A stretch of 64,000 nt of DNA from a virus, in IMG/VR virus record IMGVR_UViG_3300014720_000014, positions 62,001 through 126,000 of that record; one strand, written 5' to 3'. The position numbers and the translations under genes are program-made. Positions 15,601 through 50,226 of this stretch are shown piece by piece (position 1 is the stretch's first letter; each line of letters opens with the position of its first letter). Below the pieces are notes generated by a model. That model saw nothing but the letters and a program-made list of their open reading frames with translations. It had not been told where the DNA came from and searched no databases.

Positions 15601-18600
15601 AGCATGAGCCACTGGAAGTCTATAAAACGGAGAACCTACAGCGATATATGACCCAACACAATCAACACTAAACCCAAACGACTCGTCGGGAGCTAGAACT
15701 TCTTGTAATTTTTCGGTCAAGAAAAATACTTGATCTTTTTTATCAAACACATAAACACCCCCGGTATAACCTTGTGGGTACGAGAATGTGGTTGCGGATT
15801 TATCAAAAGTTGTTCCTAATAACAAATCAAAGTAAACAGAAAGATTAGACGAAGTATTTCTAGCACCTACAGCTATTTTAGTACCATCTGGACTTATAGA
15901 TACCCCGTAGCCAAAATATTCATTTGGGTATTGTTCGAAACTTTCTAATTTTTGTTTTACTCTAAATTCTGTCAAATTGTCGTCTAAAGACAAAACGTAA
16001 ACCGATCCTTGATCTTGAAAACTTATATCGGATTTTGGACTCGAAACAACTAAATTGTTTCCAGAAGCATCGATATCCATCGAAAAACCAAATTGATCAC
16101 CTGTGCTTATAACTAATCCCGAATCAATGTCCGAGAACGAGCTTATAGATGAAGCATTTATCATTTGAGTTAGGGTATAAACATCGTTAGCATCTCTTAT
16201 GTAAACAAATATCTTTCCAGAAGGAGATGTTGTACTATCTCCCACTTCCACCCATACTGACGAATCTGACGGATTTTCATTATAACTTCTATAAGTAGAA
16301 TCTGCCGCTATTGAAAAACCTTCTAATTTATAATACTGGTATTCTGTGATAGGAGCGCCTTCAACAGACGACACATATCTGACAACTTCACCTTCGATAT
16401 ATTCAACATCCGGGCGCCACATTCCCCTATAATTAGCAAAAAATTGTCCGTCTGCTTCCGGAGCTCCTATTACTAAAATGCTGCCATCGCTGTTCATGGC
16501 CATCGAAGTGCCAAACTTATCGCCCGCTTTTATTAGTTCTGCTATTTGATCATTAGAAAGTAAACCAGTATAAGCAAACTCTAAAGTCGATCCGTCGTCC
16601 TCTAAAGCAACATTAGTAGGTAAAGAACAGTGGGTTGAAATTTTACCAATTTTGACCCATCCAGAATTATCCATCGATAAAGTACTGCCATCAGCTGTAG
16701 AGTCTTCTAATGATGTCCATAGATTCCCTCTTACTCCCTCAGCCTCAGGATCTTGTGCTGCTTGCCAAACTATATCACCCGAATAATACGATGCAAGGGG
16801 ATCATAAATTCCTTTATATCTAATATTTTCTAGATGTTTCCATGTAGAATTTTCATACTTGTAAAGATATACTCTACCAGTATTGTTATAACTGCCTGTG
16901 GCAGACACACTCAGATAATAGCTATTTCCAGATTTACTAATTGATATCTCAGATCCAAAAAATTCATTGTCTGCTGGCCTTGGGCTTATAAATGTTTGAG
17001 ATATAGTATAAGATCCGTTGGCATACTCGTAAATAGAAATAATACCCTGTTGATAATAACCTTCGGCATTACCAGAAGTTAATGCAGGTATTATTTCGGC
17101 TAATTCCCAATCATCAGTATTAATGGCTAATTCTGTACTGCCGTCGGGTAAGGCACTGTTAGCATTTTTAGCCTTCCATAAGCGACCACCATATAAAACA
17201 ATGTCTTCCGGTTCATAAAACTTACTAGGTTCCCATTCTCCTTTATAATTTGAGGTAATACCGCTAGCTAATGGTGCTCCTACTATCAAATATTTTGAAT
17301 CAGGACTTATTGCCATCTTAGATCCAAACGAACCTAAAACATTATTAAAAAATCCAGTAGGAGGAGATACAATCTGTTTTAATTGTAATCCTGTTAATGA
17401 TTCAGCATATACTAAAACTAATCCTGAACCGGGCACACCTGTAATAACATGTTTATTAATGTTATCATAAATTACTTTTTCTCCGGTTCTTAATGGAGTC
17501 GATGTTCCATAATCTGATAAAAATTTAGCACTATACTGTTTTTGTTTTTCTACAACTTCCCATAAATTTTCACCATTATCATCTACAAATATTTTAGATC
17601 CGTTAAAGTATAAAGCTGCCAATCCCTGAGAGATATTTGAATAAGAATCAAATCTGCACTCCGTAAATGCATGAGGGCGTGTTGTGGTACTTGAATCTAA
17701 TTCAGGATCAAGACTAGTGCTAGATACTTCAATTGTAATAGCAACATTGGAAATAGAAATAATTTTAAAAAAGCCAACTAGATTAATTATGTCTCTAAAT
17801 CCGACATAATCATTTACTGCAAAATTATGTCTACGATTAAATTTTATTTCTACACTAGTTGTTGATAATCTGTTAACTCCTTCTAAACTTAATAAAGATA
17901 ATTCGTTTAATCTAAAAACTGTCCAAGAATCTTTATAAAATGTTATCCAGATATGATCATTTTCATTTACAGTGTTAATATCCAGATTAATCAAATCTTC
18001 TATATTCTGAATAACCAGTTCATATTGTCCTATGGAAACATAACCAGCAGTAAATGTAGGTTCGGTTTCAAATGACATAGTGTTGATGTCAACACTATAA
18101 GGAATGGTTGGTATCGTAAAATCTGAAATAGTTAATCTATAATTTTGATCAATATCTATTAAAGATTCATTTTCTTCTATTAAAAATACTTGTGGATTGA
18201 TCTCAAATTTATTTCTTTCGAGTTGTATTTCAACTTCTGTTAGCTGATCAGTTCCTCCTAATCTTCCAAGTAAGAACGCCCATTCTTCATTTAATTCTAT
18301 ACTATCACTTCCAGATCTACTTAACTTTCCAAAAATTTTAGTTATAGAATTATTAGTTCCTTTTTCTTTTATAAATCCCTGATATAATTGAAACTGTGTT
18401 ATAGGATCTTCTGCTAAATTTTGTAAATAATTTCTAGATTGATAACCAACAGTATGACGGGCTAGATCTCTTTGACTTTGACTTACGCCTTCAGAAGAAA
18501 CATCAAAATAATCATAAAACTGATTAATCTTATAATCAAAATTAGGAATCAAAGATTTAGTAGGAGTAGAGTCTAGTTTACTCCAAACATTGTCATCAAA

Positions 18601-21600
18601 AAATTCAGACCCTAATTGATTTTGTAAGCTGACCCAATTATAAGCTTTATAAGTAACAATATCACCTAGTTTATAGTCTTTGTAAGGTTGCCAGGTTTGT
18701 ATGTTTACATTATCAAATATAAATCCTGGGCTCGTATAATCTCCATCCCAGTCTGTAGTTCTAAATCCTTGAACTTTTATTCTTCCCTGTCTATATCCTG
18801 TGGTCTTATCGTAGATGATATCATTAAAAACTGTTCTGTCGTCAAATATCGTAACATGCTCTTTTAGAACATAATACAATTTTAGATAATAGATACCATC
18901 AGAAGTATTAGTTGTTTCAACAGTGATATTTTGATTAGATCTGTTTACATTAATAAATTGTGGTTGAAGAGGTTTTCCGTCTCCTTTTAGAATTCCATAA
19001 TTATAAAAACCATCTAAAATATTATCAGGTACACCCACAGCCATGGTTAAATTTATTTTTTCTGCGGCAGGGCTTAGAGAAATGATCGAACCAATTTCCC
19101 AATTGTGTTTTGTCCAGAACATAAATTCTTTAGAAGATGAAAGCCAATTTTGGCTAGTTTTATTCTGGGGATCGTATCTATCGAAAACGAATCCTATGGA
19201 AATTAAATAATTTTCATAGCCTAATAGAAAATCAATTACTTGTTGGATAGATGTAAACTGTGTCCCGTAACTTAGTTTCTTAACGCTTAAAGTGTTGAAA
19301 ACTCTTCGTCTATAAGCCTCGATAGCACCAACCTTAGGCAAATCATTTAATTTTTTCCAGTTAGCTGGATCAAAAAACTCTCCACTGTTGTGAGTTTTAA
19401 GAGATCTAAAATAATTATTATTATATCTTACTAAAGAACCATTACTGTAGTTTTTATTTTCAATCCACACTGTGAATACTTCACTTATACCGCCGACTGA
19501 TATTAAAGGATCTTTGCTGTTAGGTTGAGCTTGGTAATAATAGAAATAAGGATTAATATCATCATATCCGGTTATTACCCAACCTCCATTGGTCTTTTCT
19601 AATATAACTCCGCTATATGTTATATTGGCGATTGGTGAGCTTATATTAAAAATAATATCGTAATTTTCAGGCGGGATAAAAATACTTGCAGTAGTCGCTG
19701 CAGGGCTTTTACTATCTAATAAGAATTTCTGCTGTTGCTGATCAACAAATCCACTCATTCGATAAGATAATGCTACATCTAAATTATTAATCTTATCTGT
19801 TATTGTGCTAGTGTTTATTCCTTTAGATTTAATGTACGCTACTAGATACTTCAATAATCCAACAGACGGATCATCTAATGAATATTTTGTTATATCATTT
19901 TTAGAGGTAAATGTATATGAATCTTTATTAACTAACTGTCCTAACTGATTCAATACAATTTTCGATCTATCAAAACTGTCAGCTATGAAATCAAAAGGTT
20001 TCATTAAACACATAGCTATAATAATAGCAAAAGGATATTCAGAACTGGATCTCCACGCATATTCAACGGGAGCTGTATCACCTAATACAAACGCACCTTG
20101 ATTATTAATCAAAGAAAAATCTTGCGCTAATCCAGAATCAAGAGGACTTAATAGTTTTCCATCACCATCTACCGGAATGTGATTTAATATGTTAGGTCTA
20201 GCATATCTACTATGTCTTCCTGCTCTATCTCCTTGTCTTATTACACCTGCTTGAAGATCTTCCCATAAAATCAAATTGTTTTTTGTATAAGGTGCAGGAC
20301 CGTATTGTTCTTCCCACCAACTCGGCTGTTGTGAAAATCCTAACATTTCCCATGGGCATCTATGTGGTCGATCTGTATCGTAGAACCATTGATACACACC
20401 TCTCCAATATCCTGGAAGATTGACAGTTTTTGTTGGATCTGTCATGTTTGAATATGTGTAGGTGAAAGAATTTTGACTATCAAAATAGGTATTCAGTGTG
20501 TAATTGATATTTGTATTCTGAATCCATTTAAAAAATTCTTGACTAATAATATAATCAAATTGAGATTTTTTATAAGCACCTACTCCGTAATATCCTGATA
20601 AAATTTGATCTATATCAAAAATACTTCTGTTGTATTCAGCCTTGATGTTGTTATAAATTCTTAGTTCTAATTCTAATAATAATTCATCTCTAAAATCACC
20701 GTATGCAGCAGTTATACTTCCATCATGTCCTATTATCACCTCTCTTGGTTCAATATAGGTGTCATCTATAAATTTTTGAGGGGTATATTTTTTATACAAC
20801 CCCATAGAAGTAGGTGTTGGAGGAATATGATTTGTTGAAGTAGAAATATATTCTCTAATTTCAATAACATCATTGGAGTTTAAATTAACTTTTAAACGTA
20901 CAAATCCAAAAGTAGAATCAAAAATATAATCTCTATCGTTAATCAATTGCTGATTGTTTTGATACACATATACTGCTTTCTTGCTTAATGTAGAAAGATC
21001 AAATTTTTCAGATAGAGAATATGTTTGAATTCCAGTATCTTCTACCACATAAACAATTTTAGAATAAGCTCCAGCCCCTATCATATCACTATCATAGAAT
21101 GGACTGTTTGAATCTTTTGTTTTTGTTAGATTATTAATAACATCATCAACAAAATCAATGATATTATCATTGTATTCTATTTCGATCGCTTTGGCTAAAA
21201 AATTAGATTTAAATTCTGTATAAGCTTTTTTAGAATATTGTATAGATTTTATTATGTTGTGAGTCTTGTCACATAACAACATCATGCTTAACGAAGTCAA
21301 TCCAGAATGCTTAATAAATCTTTTACCGAAAGATTGAAAATTAAACAAATCTCGCAAATTTGAATTTCCCGGAATAGATCCGATCAAGGAATTACTAAAT
21401 TCTAACGCCGATGTTACATGATCTATGGCCTGTCCTAGAGTAAATGATTTTAGAGGATCATTGAACGGATTTTTTTCTAGTCCTATTGGAATTTCATAAA
21501 ATCCTTCTATTGGTTCAAGATCAGCAATAATCTTTAATGAGACTGTAGATTTAGCAGCTATATTTTCTGCAAAAGTAAAAGTATTTCCCTTTATTTCATA

Positions 21601-23844: not shown

Positions 23845-23847
23845 ATT

Positions 23848-26800
23848 TTATGTCACCGTAATTACATTTTCAACATTCGAGCCGATTTCAGCCGCAGTTA
23901 TAGCTGATACAATTTCTATGTCATCAACTGTTGCTCCACTTATTAAGATTTCATCAGCTTTACTTTGAATTTCAAATAGACTACCAAAAACTTGATTTGC
24001 CTGTTTAGGTACAATTACAATATTACTAAGATCAGGCGATGTCGAATTCAAAATATAAGTTGTTAGCTCACCGATATAAAATCTATCGCCGAAATCCCAA
24101 TTATTAATATCAAAGAAATTGTTTATAGCCTGTATAACTCTAACTTTTAAATCGTTGTCGTTTACTGTTTGATTGGGATTTTTAACAACCTTAAAGGTAG
24201 CCTGTAATTTAGAATCTGCTTTTGCACCAAATAATATTTTAAATTTTACAGGATGAAAAACAATTTCATCACTTATTGATTTTATAGATAAAAGATTGCT
24301 TCCAAACGTTGTTCTTAACGAATCAGTAGAAGGAGGTTCTGGTTCTATCGAAGAACCCCCTGCAAGATAAATTCTAAAAGATTCATCATAAGATCTTGTT
24401 AATAAAAACAAATCAATAATATTACTAGAACTAGGATCTATTCTCCTATCAACACTGGCATTATGAATATATTGAAATTTAAGGTCCCTTCTTCCGTATA
24501 CTGCCTTATATGTTCTATCCAAATCAAACGTATTAGTAGTTCTATTGATTTTCTTAACAACGTCTTCATCTACATCATAAAAATATATCAATTGTCCATC
24601 GGGATACTTTACTGTATCATTAAAATCGACATCGGATTCTCTTTCTTCTACCAATATAAATTGGTTTGAATTGTCTAATAAAGCATAGATTGTCGTGCCA
24701 AAATCGTCGGTAGTTTCTTTAAAAAATAAAAAGTTTAATTGTTGATCATTTCCTACTACATTTTCAAATGCCTCTGGATTATCTATTACTCCGTCATCAT
24801 CAGAATCGTAAAAAGACAATTTGATTTCGTTAGTACTTTCGTAGCCATCCTCAAATTTTATAGTATCTGAAATTTCAAAAGAAATATTCTGTCGTAGTTG
24901 TGATACAAAAGTACTATCCGTATTGATACTTAGAATCTTGATCTGATCCTTAACAACATTGCCTAATTTATCGTTGTATTTTTTTTCTGCAGGATCAAAA
25001 TAAAATCTATTTTGTTCTATACTACCAAATACATAATTTAATTTTCTAATTCTAACAATATACCTATCTAAATTTTTAACAAAAGCTATCACCCACGACG
25101 AGTCAACGCTGGTATTAGAAGTATCGCCGGCCTTACCTAGTGTAAAATTGCCAATTAAATCTATATTGGCTGCTGTAATAATATTCCATTCAGAATTTAC
25201 CGTGTTATAACGTAAGCCAAAATTTAAATTTTGACTGGCTTGATTCACTATTTCATTTTCTAATGCGAGACTTAAATCTGATCTAAATCTTGGCACAATT
25301 CTAGATGCTATCGCTCCGCTGGGCACAAGATCGCTGAAGGTTATCGGCCCTTGACCGTTTGGCAAAACTCCTCTATTAGCATTAGTGCCATCACCTACTA
25401 CCTTGATTACTTTAGTCCATAAAACTGTAGATTGATCGATGTCTGAAGTGTCAAGATCTACTAGCACACCTTTCTTAAAGGCTTTGTCAGTAGGAGGAAT
25501 AAATTTAACAGAGGCGCCGGGGTACAGATATTTTAAATTATTAGTTGAATAACTACCAACCTGCAATAATGCATTATCAACAATATTTTTGAAATATCCA
25601 GTTGAAGTATTAGAAGTTATAGATTGCCAAATTGTATTTGTATCTGTGAATAAAATTTTATCAAATTTTGTAAAATAAAAATTATATACATCTGTGTCAT
25701 TAAAGATAGGTTCTACAGATCTGCGAATAAAATTAATAATATCTATTCTATTATCAAATTTAAATGTTAACGAATCTTCATATTCTTCTTTATAGATATA
25801 TCCGTCATCACAAAAAACATTAACACTGCTATACTTTCCTGATGCATCAATAATATCAAAATTTCTACTTATTCCGCTAGATGTTCTATTGATTGATTTA
25901 ATTTTAACAATATTTTGAGAACTCAATAGTGGTGCTAGATTATAATCTTCTGCTGTGATCATTCTATTTTGTGTATAGTATGTTGCAGGAGCATTTGTTC
26001 TTATGGTATCTATATCTTCAGAAGCTGCAGAATTGGCCACGGTTGATTGCAGAGCAAGACCTATTGTAAGTGTATGTGAAACTCCTTGTTTGTTTACATA
26101 ACTTACACCTATATTAATACCTCGCATTTCTGTAGGATAGATTGTGTACGACAATCCATTACTAGTTCTATAATATAATCTAAATGAGCCTTGGGGGAGA
26201 TTTCCATATACTCCGTCAGCAAAAACTAAATCAATACTGTCATTTTCTTTAGAGTTAATGGCATAGATATTTCTAATATTTTGAGTTATACTATTATAGG
26301 CAATGTTGTTCCCTGTTAGGGAACTTACTTTAGTCCATTCTTCTAATTGAACTCCTGCAGAATTCAAACTAAACAACCAAACATCATTGTTATTAATATT
26401 AGCTGCATCTACAGCGATTCGTTCGTTAGTTTTTGGTACTTCTACGTTAAAATCTGCTAATTCTAAAATGCCTTGTTTAAACATCAAGAAAAACCCTGTG
26501 TTAGCACTTCCCGGTCCTGTTCCATCATTTCTATAAATGAAACCTAATTGATTACCGGGCACTGGCGGTTCTTCGTATATGGTTTCGCTGTTTTTGAATG
26601 CCGTGGAAATTATTTCAAAACTCATACCTCTAGCTGCAACTGTTTTAGTAAAGTTAAACAAAGGAATGTCAGTGCTGGCAGTTCTAAATCTATACTGTTC
26701 GGTAGGAATTCCTTGCACCACTGCAGATCCCTGACTTCTTCCGAACTCAGTATTATCTGCCATAGCGGAATTTAATACTATTAAAAATTGTTCTAACCAA

Positions 26801-37734: not shown

Positions 37735-38206
37735 CGCGGTTTTTTGGCTGGCGCAGGCCTTAATCTCATGCGCTCTAAACCTGGTCAATCGTGGTCGCAG
37801 GGACGGAATTCCATGCCGCAATGGTACTCAACTACTACCCATTTATGGATGAAGATCGCTTAAAACCTGCGATTTAGTTGTTTGAAAAGGATAAACAAAG
37901 GTAAAAAGAAGGGAGAAAACCCCTACGTATACAAAGATGTTAGCGTATGTTTGTATACCGCCGTCATATGAAGACATGGCTCGAGGTACCGGATGACCGC
38001 CTCTGCAATGCCATAACGCTAAGTGGTATTGTTCAACTCGGATAATATTTTTTTCGCCCGGCAACGGGCGAAGTGTGGCTGAACAATCTGGATAATCTTA
38101 AATTGCGCTTCGCGCAAAAAAATTTTAGAACATCTCTAAAATTTAAAAAAGAAAAAAGTGCGTTGAGCGCAAGCGAAAACGCAAACGAGCGTAAGCTCGT
38201 TATCAC
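37735..38206 (+). ncRNA. Gene-free structured region, candidate noncoding RNA or origin
   Basis: No convincing gene lies here. The right half holds consecutive perfect hairpins: an 8-bp outer stem (38028-38035 with 38080-38087) enclosing CGCCCG-GCAA-CGGGCG (38055-38070), TTGCGC-TTC-GCGCAA (38103-38117), AAATTTTAGA paired with TCTAAAATTT (38120-38144), TGCGTT with AACGCA (38159-38183) and AACGAGC-GTAA-GCTCGTT (38184-38201). GCAA and GTAA are GNRA tetraloops, typical of folded RNA. The late promoter of the next gene follows directly. It could be a 3' UTR, a free small RNA, or a replication origin; the strand is assumed from flanking genes. Confidence 0.45.
37927..37958. repeat. Inverted repeat with 9-bp perfect arms
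   Basis: GTATACAAA at 37927-37935 and TTTGTATAC at 37950-37958 are exact reverse complements around a 14-base loop, inside the gene-free region. It could be a protein-binding site or a hairpin; no T-tract follows, so it is not a simple terminator. Confidence 0.7.
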
Positions 38207-38218
38207 GATAAATAAATA
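38207..38218 (+). promoter_or_regulatory. T4-type late promoter, two overlapping boxes
   Basis: GATAAATA at 38207-38214 and AATAAATA at 38211-38218 overlap, 25-36 bases before the ATG at 38243. The ribosome site AGGAA follows at 38229. It is the start of the late head-gene region. Confidence 0.65.
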
Positions 38219-38242
38219 AACTGTGCATAGGAATTCCTAATA

Positions 38243-39256
38243 ATGAGAATCAACGAAATAATTTTTGAAAATACCTTGTCTGAAGGTCCTCTATTAAACA
38301 AAGTAGGTGCTGGTATAGGCAAAGCAGTAGGAGGCACTGCCAAAGCTGTAGGAGCAGTAGCAGGTGGCGTTGCAGGAATTCCTGGAGCTATTGCCAAAGG
38401 TTTTAGAGCAGGCAAATCTACTGTAAGCGGTGCTGGAGACGAGCCTAAATCATCTGGAGGAGTCGGTGCAGGCATAGCCAAAGGGTTGGCAGGTGGCGGA
38501 TCAACTGCTGCTGGCAGTGATGCTGCGGGAGATCCGGGAGCAGAAACTGCTGCCAAGACTTTACAACAACAGGTAGATAAGCTCAGCCCAGAAACCAAAC
38601 AAGAATTATTAAAGACTTTACAGGCCAGCAGTGAAAAAGATCAAACAGCTGCAGCAAAGCCTGCTGCACAAAACCCAGATGCTGAGCCTGCTGCTAAATC
38701 AAGTACCGCAGCAACACCGGCCACAGGAGCAGGTACAGCCACAGCAGGAACCACTGCTGCTGGTAAACCAAGGGTAGAACCAACTTTGGCAGCACCAGCT
38801 GCGGCCGCTGCATCAACTTCGGCTTCTGCACAGAAAACATCTCCTGCACAAGGTCAAGCATCTTCAGATCCTTATGAAATTATCAAAGGGCAGGTTAGAA
38901 AAGCTCAGGGAGGTACCAAACCAGTTCCTGACAATTTACTGCAGAGCATCAATACAGACATTGCTCGCATGGGTAAAGGCGACAAAGACATGGGCGCCAA
39001 TGTTGGACAGCGCATTCTTCAATTGGCCAAACAAGGATATGATGTTAAAAATGCACAGACACAGTTCATAGGTGCTTCGAAACAATTAACACAGAGTGTA
39101 TATCGTGCGATTTCTAACATGCTTAAAGAACACGGATTAGCATGGAGTGATTTAAACTTAAAAATCACACTGGTAGAAGGTGTCAGCGAATATGTGTTGA
39201 TATCTGAACTGAGACCATTAACAGAAAACAAAATCCAACTTTACAGAGTTAAATGA
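38243..39256 (+). CDS. Candidate internal head protein with capsid-targeting-like N-terminus (337 aa)
   Basis: I know no named family. The first residues MRINEIIFE resemble the T4 capsid-targeting peptide MKTYQEFIAE of internal proteins, with I7-F8-E9 fitting the gp21 cleavage rule (I/L)-x-E. Next comes a Gly/Ala-rich stretch with glycine-zipper character (GAGIGKAVGGTAKAVGAVAG, about residues 23-60), then a long Ala/Pro/Thr low-complexity linker (about 60-205), then a folded C-terminus (YEIIKGQVRKAQGG, DIARMGKGDKDMGANVGQRI, LKEHGLAWSDLNLKITLVEG). If packaged and cleaved it would be injected with DNA. It is late-promoted and overlaps the next gene by ATGA. Confidence 0.6.
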   Translation: MRINEIIFENTLSEGPLLNKVGAGIGKAVGGTAKAVGAVAGGVAGIPGAIAKGFRAGKSTVSGAGDEPKSSGGVGAGIAKGLAGGGSTAAGSDAAGDPGAETAAKTLQQQVDKLSPETKQELLKTLQASSEKDQTAAAKPAAQNPDAEPAAKSSTAATPATGAGTATAGTTAAGKPRVEPTLAAPAAAAASTSASAQKTSPAQGQASSDPYEIIKGQVRKAQGGTKPVPDNLLQSINTDIARMGKGDKDMGANVGQRILQLAKQGYDVKNAQTQFIGASKQLTQSVYRAISNMLKEHGLAWSDLNLKITLVEGVSEYVLISELRPLTENKIQLYRVK

Positions 39257-39720
39257 AAATCAGAGAACTGATAGTTGAAGCCCCGCTGGACAGTACTGGG
39301 TCTGTGGTAGGTAAGGGAGTCGGTCAAGGCGCCTATGGTGCAGGCTATGCGGCAGGCAAGATCGCCAGTAAGTTTGGATCTTCTCAAACACCTAACACAA
39401 ATCAAGGACGATCAGCTAACGTACTGACAGCTATAGGCAGGGGTATTAAAAGTGGCACGATGAAATGGGCCACTGGCAAAGGCGATGACCTCTCTAAAGA
39501 TCAAAATGCTGATACTGTGCGCAGGATAATCAACAGGAAATCAGTGCCACAAGACGAACTGGATCAATTGATCAGCAGTTTCCCCAGCTTGAAACTAGGT
39601 TGGAAAGTAGATAGGAATGCCGCCACGTTGGCCTTGAACAAGTATAAGAAAGGTCAAGCTCTAGACGGCAATGATGTTAACAGTCTTAAACTAGTGTTAC
39701 AAGATCTAGAAGAAGCTTAA
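39253..39720 (+). CDS. Second candidate internal head protein with the same N-terminal tag (155 aa)
   Basis: The N-terminus MKIRELIVEA has the same layout as the preceding gene: Met, a charged residue, Ile, Glu at position 5, two hydrophobic residues, and Glu at position 9, so I7-V8-E9 could be cut by gp21. A Gly/Ala segment (VGKGVGQGAYGAGYAAGKIA, about 18-37) follows, then basic and helical sequence (ADTVRRIINRKSVPQDELDQ) and an acidic C-terminus. It starts in the stop of the gene before it. Its 3' end overlaps by 15 bases the end of the leftward 67-residue gene. Function inferred from the tag only. Confidence 0.6.
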   Translation: MKIRELIVEAPLDSTGSVVGKGVGQGAYGAGYAAGKIASKFGSSQTPNTNQGRSANVLTAIGRGIKSGTMKWATGKGDDLSKDQNADTVRRIINRKSVPQDELDQLISSFPSLKLGWKVDRNAATLALNKYKKGQALDGNDVNSLKLVLQDLEEA

Positions 39721-39917: not shown

Positions 39918-40787
39918 TTAAGATCTTACTGCGAAAAAATTTGACTGATCCATGGTAATGTTGATTTCGTATTCGTGCTGACAGTCGTTGCAGGCAACTT
40001 TCTGTGTTTTTAACTCAATCTTGTTTTTCATTTCCATTACATGGTCGTTGATCTTGTTGAAGATTTCACTGGTGGAATTATTGATAAATTCTTCAATCAT
40101 GGTTCGATCATCAACCACACCATCTGGAGTTTCGATGCTGTGTATGCAGCCACAGACGATGTCCACTGTGAGTTCTGTCAACTTTAAAAAGCTTTGACCA
40201 AATCTTTCAATCTTTTCTTCTTCAGGCAGTGTTTCATCAGTTACAGTGGCGAATATTCGCTGTTGTTCTAAAGCTCTGATAGCAGCTTTGGTGCTTTCTT
40301 TGTAGTTGTAAGGTCTGATATTAACTTTCAACGGAGGCATGTCGATCTGAGCTTGATATTTAAAATTCTGTACTTGATTTAGATATATCACGATGTCAAA
40401 TACATAGTCATTGAGATGCTCGCAGGAAGGACAGTTAGCACTGACTTCCATGTCTTTGCCATAGGTTGCTACTCGTATGGCCATTAATGCTGCGTCAAGA
40501 TCGATGCTGGGCATCTGCCATGGATCTTTGATAGCAGGAATACAGCTCTTGATCAATTCCACAGTGGCTTGACCATTTAACAGTGCGTCCGGAGTTTTAA
40601 GAATCAGCTCGTCTTTGGCAGTCATAGCATAGACAGGATATTCTCCGGTGCTGCTGAGATCCAATGCGCCTGGCGGATAAAATTCACCTTGAGAAGGCAA
40701 TTTTAAAAATATCTTGGGTTGCCTAAAATAATTTGATAAAGGGTTGATCTTAGGTCTATTAACTGCGCTGTCTTGCAAATCTGACAT
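39918..40787 (-). CDS. 26: Baseplate hub protein gp26-like
   Basis: 289 residues from the ATG at 40787 (MSDLQDSAVNRPK), preceded by GGAGACAAATA. A longer reading from 40865 would run through both late promoters and is rejected. The protein matches the T4 gp26 family: FLKLPSQGEFYPPG, ELILKTPDALLNGQATVELI, IPAIKDPW, VATYGKDMEV. Two Cys pairs, CPSC (119-122) and CNDC (266-269), could bind zinc. Gp26 is needed to build the baseplate hub. It and its small partner are the only leftward genes inside the rightward head block. Confidence 0.82.
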   Translation of the reverse strand: MSDLQDSAVNRPKINPLSNYFRQPKIFLKLPSQGEFYPPGALDLSSTGEYPVYAMTAKDELILKTPDALLNGQATVELIKSCIPAIKDPWQMPSIDLDAALMAIRVATYGKDMEVSANCPSCEHLNDYVFDIVIYLNQVQNFKYQAQIDMPPLKVNIRPYNYKESTKAAIRALEQQRIFATVTDETLPEEEKIERFGQSFLKLTELTVDIVCGCIHSIETPDGVVDDRTMIEEFINNSTSEIFNKINDHVMEMKNKIELKTQKVACNDCQHEYEINITMDQSNFFAVRS

Positions 40788-40798
40788 TATTTGTCTCC

Positions 40799-40806
40799 GA
40801 TAAATA
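40799..40806 (+). promoter_or_regulatory. T4-type late promoter for the head block
   Basis: GATAAATA, 46 bases before the ATG at 40852. It forms a divergent pair with the leftward box at 40819-40826; the two predicted transcripts overlap by a few tens of bases at their 5' ends. Confidence 0.6.
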
Positions 40807-40818
40807 TTAATACGTAGA

Positions 40819-40826
40819 TATTTATA
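40819..40826 (-). promoter_or_regulatory. T4 late promoter, exact consensus, driving gp26
   Basis: The reverse strand reads TATAAATA, the perfect T4 late box, 32 bases before the gp26 ATG at 40787. Confidence 0.7.
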
Positions 40827-40851
40827 TGCGTATTTTTCTGGAAAAATTAAT

Positions 40852-43788
40852 ATGGCAGAAGTCACAGGCGATATTGGCGGTCAATCGGTAGAACTTAACA
40901 ACGCAGCTACAGAAGCAACTTTAAAACAACTGTTGCAGACTACCATAGCTATGGCCCAAAAAATGGGCGTAGATGTTAAGAAACAGGCCGATATGGAAAA
41001 AGAAATGAAAAAATTCTTTGACCAGCTCGACAAATCAAACAAAGGACTCAAAGACTCTAGAAAACTGCGAGAAGATGAAGCCAAGGCTCTGGAAAAAGCT
41101 GCCGCTGCTAAAAAACGTGAACAGGAACTGGCACAAAAAGCTGAAATGGTCACTGTGGGATTGTACAGAGGCCTAAATGTAGCTGCTGAAAGTGCTATGG
41201 CATTCGCCAACAAGCTCACAGGTGTTATGAGCAGTTTTGCCAACATGGGCAGCAGTCTCACAGGTGCAGCATCCACTTTTAACAACATACCTATAATTGG
41301 AGGAATGTTGGCCAATGTGTTTGGAGCAGTGGCGACATCGTCGGAAAAATTACAAGCCAGTTTTAAAACAGCCAGTTCTGTTGGTGCTACATTTGGAGGC
41401 AGCATTAGACAAATGGTGGCCAATGCCAGCCAGGCCGGATTGACTTTTGAACAGTTTTCTAATGTGATCAGAAACAACAGCGAAGATTTGGCTAGACTCG
41501 GAGGAACGACCACAGAAGGTGCTAAACGGTTAGCAGGTCTGTCAAAATCTCTGAAACAAACAGGATTACAAGATGATCTAGCACGACTTGGATTTACGTC
41601 TGAAGACATAGCTAACGGCATGGCTTCTGTGACTGGTAGACTTTATAGAGGCATAGGAGTAAGAGCTGGTCAGGAAGGAGAAGCTGCCAAAGTCGGTGCT
41701 AACTATCTTAAAAATTTAACAGCCATCTCAGCTATCACAGGTAAGAACAGAGAAGAGATGGAAAAAGAAGCTGCGCAGAGAATGTCAGATTCCAAGTACC
41801 GTGCTATGTTTGCCAAGTTAGATTCAAAAAGCAGAGCTGAGATGGAACTGTTAATGGACAGTTTACCTCCTGGACTGCAAAAAGGAGTGAGAGAAATCAT
41901 CGCTACTGGCACTGCGCAAAGCGATGAAGCTCAGGCAGTGATGTACATGTATGGCGATATTGCACAATCGGCAATGGGCATGCATCAATCCATAAGAAGA
42001 ACTAATCAAGTAACTCAAGAACAGAGATTGGCATTTGATGATACACTAAGAGCCACAGCTAAAGCACAAGACAAAGCACTCAAAGCAGGTACGGGAGCTA
42101 TTACCACCCAGATGACATATGTGGGGGGCGTGGCAGGCGATCTAGGTGTGGAAATGCAAAACGTTGCAGAACAGTCAGGCAACGTAAGACAATCTCAAGA
42201 AAAGCTTAACAAAGACCTCAAAGATGGTGCAGAAGCAGCCAAAGAACACAAAGACAGTCTCGATCCTGCACAGATAGTTAGAATGCAACAGGAAATAGCC
42301 AAGACATCTAACGAGTTCAATATTTTATTAGCACAATATCTTCCAAAATTACAAGAAGCATTTACAATGTTAGCTAACTTTGTAAAGGAGTATTTGGTAC
42401 CAGCATTTGATTTCTTTATGAAATATCTAAAAGAAGCAGTTATAGTAATTGGAGGTTTGATAGTTGTACTGACAGCGATTAAAAAAGTAGCAGAAGCTAT
42501 TCAAGCATATAAAACATTTAAAGAATTAGGTAAGGAAAGAGGATCTCCCGTTAATCCTATGTACACCATAGATGCCGGCAAAGGAGGAGGACCTGCAACT
42601 CCCGAAAGTCCAGAAGATCGTAGAAAACGTAGAGAAGGACAAAGAGACAAATTAAAAAGTGCTAAAACTGCCGGTCGCCTTGTGAAAGGAGTAGCAGGAT
42701 TAGGTGCTGTCGTATCGGCAGGTATGCTATACAGCGATATCTCAGACATCAACGAACGAGAACAAGCAGGAGATATTTCAGCAGAACAGGCAAAGATGGA
42801 AAAAGGTGGTGCCGTGGGTAGCGCAGCAGGTGGTACTGGTGGAGCTGTTGGCGGAGCTATAGCCGGAGCAGCGATCGGTTCGGTGGTTCCGGTAATAGGA
42901 ACAGCTATCGGAGGAGTCATCGGGGCCGCGTTAGGTGGATGGATAGGCAGCAACTTAGGGGAACAGCTAGGAACAGCAGTGGCTAAACCTACAATGACTC
43001 CAGAATGGATGAAGGTTAATGGACCTAACATCAAAGCATGGGCTGATGCTGTGGCAAAAGGTGCATATAAATTTGAACAAGTTCCTGACATTTATAAAGG
43101 ACACGTAAAAGATCTCTTAGATAAAAGAGGCAGCGGCGGAGCTACTCCACCGGTTTCAGCAACAGCAGGTAGTCCTAAATTAAATGAATCAGTACCAGCA
43201 GCACCCGCTAAAAAGGAAGAAGCCAAACCTGCTAAGGATGCCAAGGCCGCTGACAAAAGCGCCGCTCCTAAAAAGGACGATAAAAAAGCCGAAGATCCTA
43301 GAATTAACTTTAATACCAATGCAGAAAGCTTATTAACATCATTTGCTGAAAAAGAAGGCACTCTAGGTGAAATTAAGACTTATAAAAAAGAAGAACTTGA
43401 CAAACTAAATCGAGAATTACAAAAATCAAATAATAAAACAGATACATCATCAAGCAGTGGTCAGATTAAATCACCAACGAATCAAAAAATCGATGACAGC
43501 AAACAAAAAATGGTAAATGAGATGCTGAAAGAAGGTGATGCTAATGCTCAAAAATTAAAAGAGGCGGAATCTGAACGCGACAAAGCAATGAGAAAAGCAT
43601 TAGAAGAGGATACACTACTACCAGGACAGATTTCGCCAAGCAGTCAAATATCTTCATTAGACCTACTTGCTGAATTAAATAGTAATATGTCCCAATTAGT
43701 GAAGATCAGCAAAGAACAAAAAGATATAAATGAACGCCAACTCAATGCTACAAGAGGGTTGACCAATGATTTGTTTGCATCAGTTTAA
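40852..43788 (+). CDS. Probable tail tape-measure protein (978 aa)
   Basis: No catalytic motif is seen. The N-terminal 110 residues form a charged coiled coil (KKQADMEKEMKKFFDQLDKS). A mostly helical Ala/Gly/Ser-rich region follows. Membrane-like segments occur at about 520-540 (EAVIVIGGLIVVLTAIKKVA), and a long glycine-zipper stretch at about 655-700 (GAVGGAIAGAAIGSVVPVIG). The C-terminus is Lys/Ala/Asp-rich and disordered, then helical. This layout suits a tape measure, which sets tail length and is ejected to form a channel. At about 0.15 nm per residue, 978 residues would give a tail near 145 nm. Placement just before the portal gene is noted; an internal or injected protein is the alternative. 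Confidence 0.6.
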   Translation: MAEVTGDIGGQSVELNNAATEATLKQLLQTTIAMAQKMGVDVKKQADMEKEMKKFFDQLDKSNKGLKDSRKLREDEAKALEKAAAAKKREQELAQKAEMVTVGLYRGLNVAAESAMAFANKLTGVMSSFANMGSSLTGAASTFNNIPIIGGMLANVFGAVATSSEKLQASFKTASSVGATFGGSIRQMVANASQAGLTFEQFSNVIRNNSEDLARLGGTTTEGAKRLAGLSKSLKQTGLQDDLARLGFTSEDIANGMASVTGRLYRGIGVRAGQEGEAAKVGANYLKNLTAISAITGKNREEMEKEAAQRMSDSKYRAMFAKLDSKSRAEMELLMDSLPPGLQKGVREIIATGTAQSDEAQAVMYMYGDIAQSAMGMHQSIRRTNQVTQEQRLAFDDTLRATAKAQDKALKAGTGAITTQMTYVGGVAGDLGVEMQNVAEQSGNVRQSQEKLNKDLKDGAEAAKEHKDSLDPAQIVRMQQEIAKTSNEFNILLAQYLPKLQEAFTMLANFVKEYLVPAFDFFMKYLKEAVIVIGGLIVVLTAIKKVAEAIQAYKTFKELGKERGSPVNPMYTIDAGKGGGPATPESPEDRRKRREGQRDKLKSAKTAGRLVKGVAGLGAVVSAGMLYSDISDINEREQAGDISAEQAKMEKGGAVGSAAGGTGGAVGGAIAGAAIGSVVPVIGTAIGGVIGAALGGWIGSNLGEQLGTAVAKPTMTPEWMKVNGPNIKAWADAVAKGAYKFEQVPDIYKGHVKDLLDKRGSGGATPPVSATAGSPKLNESVPAAPAKKEEAKPAKDAKAADKSAAPKKDDKKAEDPRINFNTNAESLLTSFAEKEGTLGEIKTYKKEELDKLNRELQKSNNKTDTSSSSGQIKSPTNQKIDDSKQKMVNEMLKEGDANAQKLKEAESERDKAMRKALEEDTLLPGQISPSSQISSLDLLAELNSNMSQLVKISKEQKDINERQLNATRGLTNDLFASV

Positions 43789-43797
43789 GGACCTAAT

Positions 43798-45504
43798 ATG
43801 AGTTGGAAGAAATACTTTACACCTGTTAAGATAGATAACTCTGGAGGAAATCTCAGCCCTATAAGTGGCCGTGGCCGCCCAGGACCAGCTCGTTCAAATT
43901 ATTCATCTTTTTTACCCGATGTATATGCAGGTGCACCAAATCGTGTTGAGCGTTATATGCAATACGATACTATGGATATGGACAGCGAAGTTAATGCTGC
44001 ATTAGATATACTAGCTGAATTCTGCACACAGAAAGACAAAGAAAACGCTACTCCTTTTACTACTTTTTTCAAAGGACAACCGACTGCTACTGAAGTTAAA
44101 TTGTTAAAAGATTCTTTGCAAAAATGGTGCAAAGAACAGCAATTTGAAACTAGAATATTTAGAATATTTAGAAATTCTATGAAGTACGGCGACTGTTTCT
44201 TTGTAAGAGATCCTGAAACTAAAAAATGGTTATTTGTCGACGCTGCCAAAGTTTCAAAAATCATAGTTAACGAAAGTGAAGGTAAAATTCCGGAGCAATA
44301 TGTTATTCGTGATATTAATTTTAATTTCAAAGAGATGATAGCAGTTACTCCGCACGGCACGACAAATACGGCACCTAGCGGAACTAGTTCATATACTTCA
44401 GGTGGCGGATTTGGAAGAGGCATGGTAGGTACAGCTGCCCAACCTCCAGGAACGAGATTTCAAAATCAGGCAAACGAAATATCCATAGATGCAAAAAATG
44501 TTGTACACATTAGTTTAAGTGAAGGTCTAGATAACAACTATCCTTTTGGAAATTCAATTCTAGAATCCGTGTTCAAAGTCTACAAGCAGAAAGAACTGCT
44601 TGAAGATGCTATCATTATCTATCGTATACAACGTGCTCCTGAGAGACGTATTTTTTATGTAGACGTGGGAAATATGCCAGCACACATGGCTATGAGTTTT
44701 GTTGAACGTGTTAAAAACGAAATCCAACAGCGTCGTATTCCTTCATCAACAGGTGGCGGACAAAATGTCATAGACGCCAGTTATAATCCATTAAGTGTAA
44801 ACGAAGATTACTTTTTCCCACAGACAGCAGAAGGTCGTGGATCTAAAGTTGAAACATTACCGGGTGGTACTAATCTAGGTGAAATTACAGATTTACGTTA
44901 TTTCACTAATAAGTTATTTCGTGCTCTACGTATACCAGCCAGCTATTTGCCTACAGCCATTGATGAGCAACCAAATACTATATCAGATGGAAAAGTTGGA
45001 ACAGCTTATATTCAAGAACTGAGATTCAATGAGTATTGCAAACGATTGCAGAGCATGATTGTAGAAACATTTGATTTAGAATTTAAGTTATGGCTTACAC
45101 ATCAAGGAATAAGTATAGATTCAAGTTTGTTTGAATTAAAATTTAATTCTCCCCAAAATTTCGCAGCATATAGGCAATCTGAATTAGATACAGCACGAGC
45201 AGCTACTTTCAGTCAAGTCGTGCAAATTCCACATCTAAGCAAACGTTTTGCTATGAAACGATTCCTAGGAATGTCAGAAGAAGAAATCAAAGAAAATGAA
45301 AGATTATGGAGAGAAGAAAATGGATCTAATCTCAAACCAGATGCAGATTCGCAGAGTCAATTAAGGAGCATAGGAATAACACCGGGTACCATGGCTGCTG
45401 ATATGTCAGCACAAACAGCAGAAGCACCTCCGGAGATGGCAGCAGCGGCCGAACCAGGAGCAGCAGGTGCTGAAACAGCAGCAGAACAAACTCCAACTCA
45501 ATAA
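43798..45504 (+). CDS. 20: Portal vertex protein gp20
   Basis: 568 residues, near T4 gp20 (524). Characteristic segments are VERYMQYDTMDMDSEVNAAL, DILAEFCTQKDKENATPF, FRIFRNSMKYGDCFFVRDPE, LSEGLDNNYPFGNSILESVF, KQKELLEDAIIIYRIQRAPE, RRIFYVDVGNMPAHMAMSFV and LRYFTNKLFRALRIPASYLP. Twelve copies form the portal through which DNA enters and leaves. The last 50 residues are an Ala/Glu/Pro-rich tail. An AAGGA ribosome site precedes the ATG. Nearby genes give the usual T4 order toward gp21, gp22 and gp23. Confidence 0.95.
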   Translation: MSWKKYFTPVKIDNSGGNLSPISGRGRPGPARSNYSSFLPDVYAGAPNRVERYMQYDTMDMDSEVNAALDILAEFCTQKDKENATPFTTFFKGQPTATEVKLLKDSLQKWCKEQQFETRIFRIFRNSMKYGDCFFVRDPETKKWLFVDAAKVSKIIVNESEGKIPEQYVIRDINFNFKEMIAVTPHGTTNTAPSGTSSYTSGGGFGRGMVGTAAQPPGTRFQNQANEISIDAKNVVHISLSEGLDNNYPFGNSILESVFKVYKQKELLEDAIIIYRIQRAPERRIFYVDVGNMPAHMAMSFVERVKNEIQQRRIPSSTGGGQNVIDASYNPLSVNEDYFFPQTAEGRGSKVETLPGGTNLGEITDLRYFTNKLFRALRIPASYLPTAIDEQPNTISDGKVGTAYIQELRFNEYCKRLQSMIVETFDLEFKLWLTHQGISIDSSLFELKFNSPQNFAAYRQSELDTARAATFSQVVQIPHLSKRFAMKRFLGMSEEEIKENERLWREENGSNLKPDADSQSQLRSIGITPGTMAADMSAQTAEAPPEMAAAAEPGAAGAETAAEQTPTQ

Positions 45505-46443: not shown

Positions 46444-47298
46444 ATGGCAGACAACAAATTATTGCAACAGATGCTTGAGCATCTGGTGAACGATGATCAG
46501 CAAAAAGCTGAAGAACTATTCCACGAGTATGTAGTAGCGAAATCTCGTGAAATCTACGAAAGCTTAATCGATTCTGAAATCGCAGAAGAAGCAGAAGAGG
46601 ACGATGAAGACGAAGATGAAGAAATGGATGAAGCTGCTAAATCTGAAAAAGAAGAAGATGAAGAAGATCTAGACGAAGAATTTGAAGATATCGCTATCGA
46701 AGCAGACGACGAAGAAATGGGCGGTATGGGCGGAGACGCAACAGATGACCTAGAAGGTGATTTAGAAATGGGCGGCGAAGAAGGCGAAAAAAGCGAAGAA
46801 GAGCTTTTCATGGATTTAGAGTCTATCGTTGACGAACTACAGGCCAAATTCGACGAGCTTAAGGGCGATGACATGAGCGACATGGGCGATGATGACATGG
46901 GCGGCATGGACGACAAAATGAAAGACGATTTCGATCTAGAAACAGTCCGTGAGTATGTAGAAAAAGTTCCAGCCGGACATGGCGCAGAAAAGAAGGGCGC
47001 AGGCGAAAAAGCTGACAGCACAAAATCCGTTATTGATAACATGAAGAACGATATGGGCGGTACCACTGCAAATATTTTAAGTGGACGCGATGGTGCTTCT
47101 GGTTCTGAAACAGGCGCTTTGAAAGGCAACGGCCTTTTAAAAGGCAAAGCACAAGAAGACAATGCTGGTAATATCAATGTTCCAGGCGGTAAAGCAGGCG
47201 GTGCTTTCTCTACCAAAGAGCCAGGACATGGCGCTGAAAAGAAAGGCGCAGCTGAACAAGCTGATAACAAGCAAAGCCTTTTCCGTGGTCGTAGATAA
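46444..47298 (+). CDS. Acidic prohead core (scaffold-associated) protein
   Basis: 284 residues. Residues 1-40 form a helix (ADNKLLQQMLEHLVNDDQQK). Residues about 40-170 are dominated by Glu/Asp, with Met/Gly patches (GGMGGDATDDLEGDLEMGGE). Two copies of PxGHGAEKKGAxExAD occur in the C-terminal half (nt about 46974-47020 and 47223-47265). Small acidic core proteins such as T4 gp67/gp68 are cleaved by gp21 and lost or retained as peptides; that role is inferred from position before gp21 and from composition. A strong ribosome site AAGGAG precedes the start. Confidence 0.65.
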   Translation: MADNKLLQQMLEHLVNDDQQKAEELFHEYVVAKSREIYESLIDSEIAEEAEEDDEDEDEEMDEAAKSEKEEDEEDLDEEFEDIAIEADDEEMGGMGGDATDDLEGDLEMGGEEGEKSEEELFMDLESIVDELQAKFDELKGDDMSDMGDDDMGGMDDKMKDDFDLETVREYVEKVPAGHGAEKKGAGEKADSTKSVIDNMKNDMGGTTANILSGRDGASGSETGALKGNGLLKGKAQEDNAGNINVPGGKAGGAFSTKEPGHGAEKKGAAEQADNKQSLFRGRR

Positions 47299-47310
47299 TA
47301 GGACGTATAG

Positions 47311-47940
47311 GTGAAAACTACTCTATCAGAACATTTGAGTTTTGATCAGGCTAAGATTGTCTTAGAGCGAGATGAGAGCAGCGACGGCAAAAAGTCGCTG
47401 CACTTAAACGGGATTTGCATTCAGGGCGATATCCGCAATGCAAATCAACGTGTTTATTCTTCTCAAGAAATTGGCAGGGCTGTCAAGACGCTCAATGAAC
47501 AGATCGCTGGTGGATACTCCGTTCTTGGAGAAGTTGATCATCCTCAGGATTTAAAAATCAATCTAGATCGTGTTAGTCATATGATTACCAAGATGTGGAT
47601 GGACGGTCCTAACGGCTACGGAAAACTTAAAGTACTCCCCACTCCAATGGGTCAATTAGTTTCGACTATGTTGGAGTCGGGAGTTAAGTTGGGAGTAAGT
47701 AGTAGAGGCTCAGGCGAAGTAGATGGTAGTGGTAATGTTCAAGGATTTGAAATTATCACAGTTGACGTAGTAGCACAACCTTCCGCTCCGGGAGCATACC
47801 CAACACCAGTTTATGAACACTTGATGAACAACACAGGTGGCTATCAGGCATATAAAATAGCACAAGAAGTTCAAGGCGATCCACAGGCACAGAAATACCT
47901 AGCAGAGAGTCTGAAGAAAATTATTTCTAGACTCAGATAA
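47311..47940 (+). CDS. 21: Prohead maturation protease gp21
   Basis: 209 residues beginning with GTG 12 bases after the core-protein stop. Family features: LHLNGICIQGDIRNANQRVY, GGYSVLGEVDHPQDLKINLD (His77 likely catalytic), VSHMITKMWMDGPNGYGKLK, KLGVSSRGSGEVDG (Ser130 or 131 likely nucleophile) and DVVAQPSAPGAY. Gp21 cuts head proteins after (I/L)-x-E during maturation and also cuts internal proteins. T4 gp21 is similar in length (212). Confidence 0.93.
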   Translation: MKTTLSEHLSFDQAKIVLERDESSDGKKSLHLNGICIQGDIRNANQRVYSSQEIGRAVKTLNEQIAGGYSVLGEVDHPQDLKINLDRVSHMITKMWMDGPNGYGKLKVLPTPMGQLVSTMLESGVKLGVSSRGSGEVDGSGNVQGFEIITVDVVAQPSAPGAYPTPVYEHLMNNTGGYQAYKIAQEVQGDPQAQKYLAESLKKIISRLR

Positions 47941-47953
47941 CAAGGAGAATCAC

Positions 47954-49045
47954 ATGTTAGATATCGTAAAACAGTTGTTTGAAAACAATGTGATTTCCGA
48001 AGAGATCAAATCGGAAATTGAATCCGCTTGGCAAAGCAGAATTCAAGAAAACCGTGATCAAGTCACTGCTGAACTACGTGAAGAATTTGCACAGAAATAC
48101 GAACATGACAAGAGCGCAATGGTAGAAGCTGTTGAAGCTATGTTATCAGATCGTCTACAAGCAGAACTAGGAGAGTTAGCTGAAGATCGTCAAGGTCTTA
48201 TCGAAGCTCGTGCCAAGTACGCAAAGAAAATGAAAGATGATGCAACCGCTATGGAAGCATTTGTCCTAAATAATCTTAAAAAAGAACTAGCAGAACTACA
48301 CGAAGATCGTAAAGCAGTAGCAGATAATGTTGCTAAATTTGAATCTTTCATCGTGGATGCACTAGCGAAAGAAATCGCAGAATTCCACACAGACAAAAAA
48401 GACCTAGCAGAAACTAAGGTTCGCCTAGTTCGCGAGAGCAAGGCTAAGTTTGAAGCTGTAAAGAAAGAATTTATTGAGCGTTCGTCTAAGATCGTACAAG
48501 AAACAGTCTCTAAAGGACTGCGTTCTGAAATGACTCAGCTACGCGAAGACATTGAAGCAGCCCGTAAAAATGACTTTGGTCGCAGAATTTTTGAATCTTT
48601 TGCAAGCGAATACGCTGCAAGTCATCTTAATGAAAAATCTGAAACAGCAAAACTATTGAAAGTAGTTGCTGTAAAAGAATCTGAATTAGAAGAGGCAGCA
48701 AAAATTGTTGCAGAAACACAAAAACTAGTAGAAAGTAAAGAAACAGAATTACGTGTCGCCAAAGATATGAGTGTTCGCAAAGAAGTTATGAGCGAATTGC
48801 TTGGACCATTAACTGGAGATAAGCGTTCTGTAATGAACGAATTACTAGAATCTGTTCAAACTGAAAAGCTACGTACAGCTTTCGACAAATACCTACCAGC
48901 AGTAATGAATGGTGGAACACCGGCGAAGAAAGTACTATCAGAAGGCAAAGAAATTACAGGCGATAAGCAGGCACCTACAATCGGCGGAGAGGAAAAAACC
49001 GCTGAAATTTTTGACATCCGCAGGCTTGCGGGACTAAAAGTTTAA
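47954..49045 (+). CDS. 22: Prohead scaffold protein gp22
   Basis: 363 residues, almost entirely helical and charged (AELREEFAQKYEHDKSAMVE, DIEAARKNDFGRRIFESFAS), as in T4 gp22. The FGRRIFESFASEYAASHLNE segment is the conserved part of the family. The scaffold shapes the prohead and is degraded by gp21, located just upstream. A ribosome site AAGGAG precedes its ATG, and the capsid gene follows after 11 bases. Confidence 0.92.
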   Translation: MLDIVKQLFENNVISEEIKSEIESAWQSRIQENRDQVTAELREEFAQKYEHDKSAMVEAVEAMLSDRLQAELGELAEDRQGLIEARAKYAKKMKDDATAMEAFVLNNLKKELAELHEDRKAVADNVAKFESFIVDALAKEIAEFHTDKKDLAETKVRLVRESKAKFEAVKKEFIERSSKIVQETVSKGLRSEMTQLREDIEAARKNDFGRRIFESFASEYAASHLNEKSETAKLLKVVAVKESELEEAAKIVAETQKLVESKETELRVAKDMSVRKEVMSELLGPLTGDKRSVMNELLESVQTEKLRTAFDKYLPAVMNGGTPAKKVLSEGKEITGDKQAPTIGGEEKTAEIFDIRRLAGLKV

Positions 49046-49056: not shown

Positions 49057-50226
49057 ATGTCACAACTACTCGAGTCACGCTGGTCGGAAACCAAAGAGGC
49101 ACTATTAGAAGGCCTACAAGGTAACAAGCGTCAAGTTATGGCAACAACTCTAGAGAATACTCGCAAGTATTTGGCAGAGTCTGCCACTGCTGGTGCTACA
49201 TCCGCCGGTAATGTTGCAACACTAAATCGTGTGATCCTACCAGTGATCAGACGTGTAATGCCAACCGTTATTGCTAACGAGTTGGTAGGCGTACAGCCAT
49301 TAACTGGACCAGTCGGTCAAATCCATACCCTACGTGTTCGCTATGCAGATACATTTGCTGGCACCGTTGGCGGAGCTACCGTAGCTGGTGAAGAGGCATT
49401 AAGCCCATTCAAGATTGCAGAAGGCTATTCTGGTACAACAGTTGGTAAACCTGCTGCTACAGCGGCACTAGAAGGTGTTGCTGGAAATAGACTAAGCATT
49501 CAAATCTTGAAGCAAACTGTAGAAGCTAAGACCAGAAAGCTATCAGCTCGCTGGACATTTGAAGCTGCTCAGGATGCACAAGCACAACAAGGTATCGATA
49601 TTGAAGCTGAAATCATGGCTGCTTTAGCACAAGAAATCACTGCTGAAATCGATCAAGAAGTTCTACGTAGCCTAGCTACATTGAGCTCGACAGTTTTAAC
49701 ATACGATCAAGCTGCTGTATCTGGTACAGCAACATTTGTTGGTGATGAGCATGCAGCTTTAGCTGTTCAAATCAACCGTGCTGCTAACTTGATTGCTCAG
49801 CGTACACGTCGTGGTGCTGGTAATTGGGCCGTTGTATCCCCAACTACACTAACATTGCTACAAAGCGCAACAACTTCTGCATTCGCAAGAACCACAGAAG
49901 GTACGTTTGAAGCACCTACAAACACCAAGTTTGTTGGTACATTGAACAGCGCAATGAAAGTATATGTTAACACATATGCTGAAAACGACAACGTTTTAGT
50001 TGGATACAAAGGATCCAGCGAAAGCGATGCAGCAGCATTCTACTGCCCATACATTCCATTGATGAGCAGCGGTGTTGTTCTAGATCCATCAACCTTCGAA
50101 CCAGTCGTATCATTCATGACACGTTATGGTTATGTTGAGTTGACAAATACAGCTTCGTCTCTAGGTAATGCAGCTGACTACCTAGCAACTGTTGCTGTAA
50201 CATCTGCAAATCTACGTTTTGCTTAA
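49057..50226 (+). CDS. 23: Major capsid protein gp23
   Basis: 389 residues, shorter than T4 gp23 (521). Features include LNRVILPVIRRVMPTVIANE, LVGVQPLTGPVGQIHTLRVR, KARTRKLSARWTFEAAQDAQ-type E-loop/helix and EIDQEVLRSLATL. LAE at 39-41 followed by SATAGATSAG fits a gp21 cleavage site, releasing about 41 residues. The shortness means the T4 insertion domain is largely missing. An AAGGAG ribosome site precedes the start and a strong terminator follows. Confidence 0.95.
   Translation: MSQLLESRWSETKEALLEGLQGNKRQVMATTLENTRKYLAESATAGATSAGNVATLNRVILPVIRRVMPTVIANELVGVQPLTGPVGQIHTLRVRYADTFAGTVGGATVAGEEALSPFKIAEGYSGTTVGKPAATAALEGVAGNRLSIQILKQTVEAKTRKLSARWTFEAAQDAQAQQGIDIEAEIMAALAQEITAEIDQEVLRSLATLSSTVLTYDQAAVSGTATFVGDEHAALAVQINRAANLIAQRTRRGAGNWAVVSPTTLTLLQSATTSAFARTTEGTFEAPTNTKFVGTLNSAMKVYVNTYAENDNVLVGYKGSSESDAAAFYCPYIPLMSSGVVLDPSTFEPVVSFMTRYGYVELTNTASSLGNAADYLATVAVTSANLRFA

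Follow-up and report, generated by a model that had tools for sequence, protein, structure and literature searches.

Two adjacent phage genes with candidate capsid-targeting tags beside a T4-type head module

Organization of the locus

The window, which is the whole stretch of DNA that was analysed (64,000 bases), corresponds to bases 62001-126000 of a 195,370-base IMG/VR record, and other parts of this record were also examined. The window contains a T4-type head module that consists of genes encoding a portal protein, a gp67-like protein, an S77 prohead protease, a gp22-like scaffold, and the major capsid protein gp23 (Table 1). The protease matches Pfam Peptidase_S77 with 85 bits, which bears out the statement of an earlier reading of these letters (the sequence-only reading) that gp21 is encoded in the same genome, and its closest isolate relatives are jumbo phages such as Phosso, SCTP-2, Atu_ph07, and PA5oct (51-57% identity). 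A Pfam search gave no match for either the gp67-like or the gp22-like gene. The gp23 proteins of the window and its relatives have L[ASN]E/SA where T4 gp23 has LTE/A (FLTE/AEIGG, NC_000866; a slash marks the point of cleavage, actual or proposed).

The two genes that are the subject of this study, A and B, overlap by 4 bases and are flanked by a GIY-YIG-like gene on one side and by the gp26-like hub gene, on the opposite strand, on the other side. Both open reading frames, with the starts MRINEIIFE (A) and MKIRELIVE (B), were found where the sequence-only reading had placed them. The approximately 500 bases upstream of A (37735-38242) hold no clear gene. The sequence GATAAATA is located 36 bases upstream of the A start and has one mismatch to the T4 late promoter; it was given no weight because sites with one mismatch are common (217 in the window). 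Elsewhere in the window, the minus strand contains a 4733-aa ORF (9643-23844), which is unusually long for a phage protein.

Table 1. Coordinates of genes A and B, of their predicted segments, and of neighbouring genes in the window.
Feature	Coordinates	Strand	Remarks
Gene A	38243..39256	+	337 aa; MRINEIIFE tag, NTLSE/GP second site, glycine-zipper segment, low-complexity middle, helical C-terminal region
A tag, residues 1-9 (M-R-I-N-E-I-I-F-E)	38243..38269	+	candidate site 1
A residues 10-14 (NTLSE), candidate site 2 (L-S-E/G-P)	38270..38284	+	predicted mature N-terminus Gly15
A residues 15-55, Gly/Ala-rich, glycine-zipper-like	38285..38407	+	predicted helix, low confidence
A residues 210-296, helical region	38870..39130	+	fair confidence, block pLDDT mostly 71-88
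Gene B	39253..39720	+	155 aa; tag MKIRELIVE/AP, disordered linker, four-helix C-terminal domain
B tag, residues 1-9	39253..39279	+	cut predicted after Glu9
gp26-like baseplate hub protein	39918..40865	-	PF12322; right-hand slot border
gp20 portal protein	43798..45504	+	anchor for fetching relatives
gp67-like acidic protein	46444-47298		named from position and sequence character
gp21-type prohead protease (Peptidase_S77)	47311..47940	+	presumed cutter
gp22-like scaffold	47954-49045		named from position and sequence character
gp23 major capsid protein	49057..50226	+	KYLAE/SATAGATSAG conserved, fits same L-x-E rule

Tags, cleavage sites and the conserved slot of A and B

The translations of A and B both have Glu at position 5, hydrophobic residues at positions 6-8, and I-x-E at positions 7-9, as was described in the sequence-only reading, and the Gly/Ala-rich stretches behind the tags and the dissimilar C-termini described there were likewise seen. 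That reading also matched the two starts to the tag of the T4 internal proteins, which is MKTYQEFIAE/A in ipII and ipIII (NC_000866). The tags are similar, but the T4 tag is 10 residues long with Glu at position 6, so the match is shifted by one residue. T4 gp21 cleaves after [L/I]-X-E, and in the T4 IPIII tag residues 4 and 7 count for targeting and residues 8 and 10 for processing (PMC9026906). When shifted by one, these key residues correspond to positions 3, 6, 7, and 9 of the A and B tags, which are hydrophobic or Glu.

The motif match in A and B is beyond chance. Within the 195-kb record, the strict motif MxxxEhhxE is found at 4 of 157 first ATGs and at 0 of 2116 internal starts (Fisher P 2e-5), and the four starts are those of A, B, and the ORFs at record positions 22939 (MRAKEFIIE) and 25010 (MRAKEFILE). 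A slightly looser form of the motif, counted in the portal surroundings of 80 related contigs and in one B relative, was found at 25 of 865 first starts and 7 of 4638 internal starts (P 7e-15, with related and therefore non-independent sequences). Additionally, the ORF at 150904 of the record starts with MKTFKEYLAES, which is close to the T4 internal proteins, and its product (MKTFKEYLAE/S) matches PHROG families annotated as virion structural protein (3e-5) and internal head protein (0.001). The best reading of the tag is that it is of the capsid-targeting type and that the S77 protease encoded by the phage would cleave it at [I/L]-x-E.

Gene A has a further [LI]xE site at residues 12-14 (LSE/GP) that the sequence-only reading overlooked. 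Among 20 A-type slot proteins (19 relatives and A of the window), site 1 fits [LI]xE in 18 and site 2 in all 20; in L051 and L074 site 1 is lost and site 2 is kept. The A-type site 2 is mostly [LI]xE/[GAKR]P with variable spacing, and a 10-sequence alignment of A-type proteins shows no variation at L12, E14, and P16 and almost none at E9 and G15. Since site 2 is the better conserved, mature A probably starts at Gly15 and not at residue 10; the start at residue 10 that had been expected of both proteins is retained for B. The predicted structure of A is mostly of low confidence, with a possible helix (17-45, low confidence) in the Gly/Ala-rich segment. This possible helix and the glycine-zipper segment lie directly behind the predicted cut and are followed by the long low-complexity middle. 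A stretch related to residues 279-321 of A is present in L074, and the slot protein of distant relatives (L084 and L089) looks membrane-spanning.

The relatives of B keep the tag, and the remainder of the protein is 17-22% identical outside L003. In one relative the site of the B-slot protein is one residue earlier, and the B-slot proteins of L027 and L030 keep MR[FI]KE[IL] and lack Glu9. The first half of B is predicted to be disordered and the C-terminal four-helix domain has a pLDDT of about 85; a fold search of B against BFVD and PDB gave nothing below E 0.08.

In relatives, the A and B families occupy the same conserved slot, next to tail and portal genes. An A-type slot protein is found in most relatives whose upstream sequence extends far enough and a B-type protein in several, often alongside, and the tag, when sought in the head-region proteins of the relatives, is present at the same locus. 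A view of these proteins as variable cargo is not supported; the slot recurs in most of the relatives that could be compared over this region, and the A-type protein does not have the variable presence among close relatives of an accessory gene. A search of A and B against 50,697 phage records (E<=1) gave no match, so no isolate with direct homologues is usable, and nothing meaningful was matched in Pfam or PHROGs, with neither protein fitting a known inhibitor or effector family. In some relatives a long protein that is absent from this place in the window is encoded upstream of A (L016:1371-2855, L023:467-2119, L042:2258-4153, and L058:3627-6101). These long proteins have internal [LI]xE/[AG]P sites with Gly-rich stretches behind them, and they are possibly cut into several pieces.

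Spread of the tag and its cargo

The reach of the tag is wider than the sequence-only reading proposed. A scan of IMG/VR found the dialect MRAxEFIxE in at least 120 stretches, compared to 10 for the permuted MRAxFEIxE, and the dialect M[KR]INEI[ILM]xE (also written M[KR]INEI[IL]xE) in at least 120 stretches, compared to 4 for its permuted form. Among the matches listed, 143 of 146 in the MRA set and 119 of 122 in the M[KR]INEI set head a frame that is >=60 codons long or runs off the contig (5 of 10 for the permuted MRA control), and in the MRA set the previous stop is a median of 8 codons away. In both sets, the fixed tag positions are encoded by freely varying synonymous codons, which indicates that selection acts on the peptide. 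The sequences behind the tag form about 30 (MRA) and 43 (M[KR]INEI) unrelated clusters among the matches listed. When the tag is removed, 44 of the 118 M[KR]INEI-tagged proteins among the matches listed have an MRA-tagged homologue, and the dialects are therefore exchangeable on the same cargo. The earlier suggestion of one tag on unrelated mature parts holds for the wider tag, which related genomes carry on many unrelated cargoes as well as at the A and B locus, and A and B themselves differ too.

Domains found in tagged proteins include ParB_N (just under the cut-off), DUF6267, GP88, and the polyvalent-protein domain LPD23, which is above its cut-off in one tagged protein of a related contig. 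In the record that contains the window, the protein encoded at 25010-26080 (L006:6010-7080; tag MRAKEFILE) has a HAD phosphatase domain related to polynucleotide kinase (phrog_415, 4e-12). T4 turns such an end-healing phosphatase against a host anticodon nuclease, and given this T4 counterpart, a head-packed end-healing phosphatase would be notable. The tagged protein at 22939-23883 (L006:3939-4883) has a Cys/Trp-rich C-terminal module, ACYHKVRSRYKVWPSAYASGALVQCRKK, that is also found in 365 phage records, nearly all of them cyanophages, and in some of these it lies within a protein annotated as structural. The tagged proteins L344:10295-10921, L151:4535-5239, and L138:2376-3158 appear by eye to be kinase-like or ADP-ribosyltransferase-like, and a Pfam search gave no match for them.

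Several other possibilities were rejected. Cleavage of tagged polyproteins at internal GVAE-like sites was discarded because such sites are rarer in MRA-tagged proteins than in the background. Depletion of [IL]xE in the mature cargo (obs/exp 0.71, z -2.2) was considered as a mark of protease exposure and is weak and non-specific, as [IL]..E is equally depleted. T7-like phages were considered as tag hosts; a T7-type portal is present in 1 of 38 records and the tag match in that record is a 28-aa chance frame. A tail-sheath search, which had no positive control, gave no match.

S77 is present in all 8 of the tag-bearing records of >=150 kb that were tested (seven MRA and one M[KR]INEI), with Gp23 in all seven of the MRA records, and two control records of >=150 kb are without S77. 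Neither S77 nor Gp23 was found in any of 30 MRA-tagged records of 30-130 kb (1.7 Mb in total), of which about 5 would be estimated to have it if the records were random pieces of ~345 kb genomes. Short tagged pieces may miss S77, since the MRA genes of the genome studied here are ~75 kb from its head genes. This absence is explained only if the tag genes are far from the head genes, and it is possible that tags are also found in phages that do not have S77.

Evidence from virions is available for PA5oct, which has the same 9-residue tag type and related T4-like head genes. According to its GenBank record, EST35_0150 (MKINDIITE/GYYN), encoded directly after the portal gene, and EST35_0238 (MKIKDILVE/SDEY) are virion proteins by ESI-MS/MS, and a third tagged protein, EST35_0271, was undetected in the virion by this method (2 of 3 tagged proteins detected). 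Because many PA5oct proteins were detected, this demonstrates that tagged virion proteins exist and not that they are enriched. The mature parts of EST35_0150 and EST35_0238 are unrelated to those of A and B. The mature start of gp23, E/SATAGATSAGNVAT, has look-alikes (E/NASVGATSSGSVATV) right behind the tag on small unrelated proteins in L159 and L169, and a further look-alike, ETASAGASSAGGIASV, lies inside the MS-detected PA5oct protein EST35_0203 (L226:2633-4129).

Proposed role of A and B and relation to known systems

It is proposed that A and B are tagged proteins of the prohead interior, that their propeptides are cut by S77, and that the mature forms are kept in the head and probably ejected; we give this reading a probability of roughly 0.7. 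The first 9 (B) or 14 (A) residues would act as a capsid-targeting propeptide that binds the prohead core at assembly. S77 would then cut after [I/L]-x-E, at Glu9 in B and most likely at Glu14 in A, perhaps at Glu9 also. Mature A and B would remain in the head with the DNA, and their ejection at infection is probable. Targeting, cleavage, packaging, and ejection are steps that we infer from sequence.

This arrangement resembles that of T4 IPI-III in having a short tag with a conserved acidic residue, a hydrophobic pair, and an [I/L]-x-E end, in the unrelated mature parts, and in the presence of an S77 protease and a gp23-type head in the same genome. T4 IPI also resembles the design of A, as it starts with MKTFKEF... 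and has an I-T-E site only further in (NC_000866). The differences are that the tag is 9 residues long here and 10 in T4, that A has a second site, and that the conserved slot of A and B adjoins the hub and portal genes whereas the T4 genes are near e and tRNA genes. Additionally, the wider group described here has far more cargo families, and the mature parts are without homology to the T4 internal proteins.

The sequence-only reading went further and suggested that A and B could be host-takeover effectors, which would make them injected counter-defence proteins like T4 IPI-III and the slot an effector hotspot. T4 Ip1-3 have only the leader in common and act as accessory proteins that inhibit type IV restriction enzymes (PMC12373910), other tagged proteins have LPD23, ParB_N, or HAD/PNK-like domains, and mature A and B diverge fast, as seen in the B identities. 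However, most relatives for which sufficient sequence is available keep the slot and its A-type protein, frequently together with B, A is a low-complexity protein with a glycine zipper and no match to an enzyme or known inhibitor, and the fold search with B was empty; an effector role for these two proteins is thus considered unlikely. The conserved slot favours a core head-internal or DNA-entry role, and together with the glycine zipper of A it makes a structural or DNA-entry role likelier than counter-defence.

It also seems improbable that A and B belong to the prohead core or scaffold and, as happens to T4 gp22, gp67, and gp68, are broken down by the protease and lost from the head, in which case they would not be ejected. 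Both genes are close to those for the portal and the core, the core proteins of T4 are processed to fragments, and the slot neighbours in L023, L042, and L058 hold their internal sites as if for multi-piece cutting, but the gp67-like and gp22-like genes already fill these roles and the strongly N-terminal sites of A and B fit the removal of a propeptide. Quite unlikely is a different use of the N-terminal motif, such as tail or baseplate docking with an incidental I-x-E, for even though A and B adjoin the baseplate hub and tape-measure-like genes, the PA5oct and Phosso homologues of the MKTFKEYLAE protein keep the start and not the E site, L027 and L030 do the same with respect to Glu9, and S77 was not found in the shorter tagged records, unrelated cargoes retain Glu9 and the [LI]-x-E spacing, neither of which a docking helix would need, site 2 of A follows this rule again at variable spacing, and the gene for EST35_0150, a tagged virion protein, lies next to the portal gene, in the position of T4 gp67.

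Packaging of tagged proteins in the head, which is the reading that we prefer, has parallels in other phages. In SPN3US and phiKZ, head-protein propeptides are cut after Glu by a gp21-related protease and the mature forms are ejected (PMC9026906, PMC10052503). These belong to another phage group and differ in the details of the motif, with no common 9-residue tag shown. Some tailed phages inject polyvalent proteins, and the tagged LPD23 protein of the related contig carries a domain of this kind; A and B are without such a domain. A review has proposed the capsid-targeting sequence as a possibly general route by which T4-like phages pack various proteins (PMC9026906). The general packing idea has thus been proposed already, and we could not find a description of the extent of the tag, its exchangeable dialects, or the double site. 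The full-text literature that was searched, with subscription papers and preprints outside its scope, contained the T4 and giant-phage systems and no description of the 9-residue tag or its spread.

On balance, we lean slightly towards the view that aquatic and jumbo T4-like phages have a common head-loading code, M-[KR]-h-x-[ED]-h-h-x-E, with interchangeable dialects and dozens of unrelated cargoes including enzymes, several per genome, such that the injected proteome may be predictable from sequence. Should the tag direct proteins into the head, candidate packaged or injected proteins could be listed by a simple search across a large and mostly uncultured phage group. If this is true, the T4 capsid-targeting sequence, which has been characterised in T4 and its near relatives, would extend to distant jumbo and aquatic lineages, and a second pair of tag and protease would be available for loading proteins into heads.
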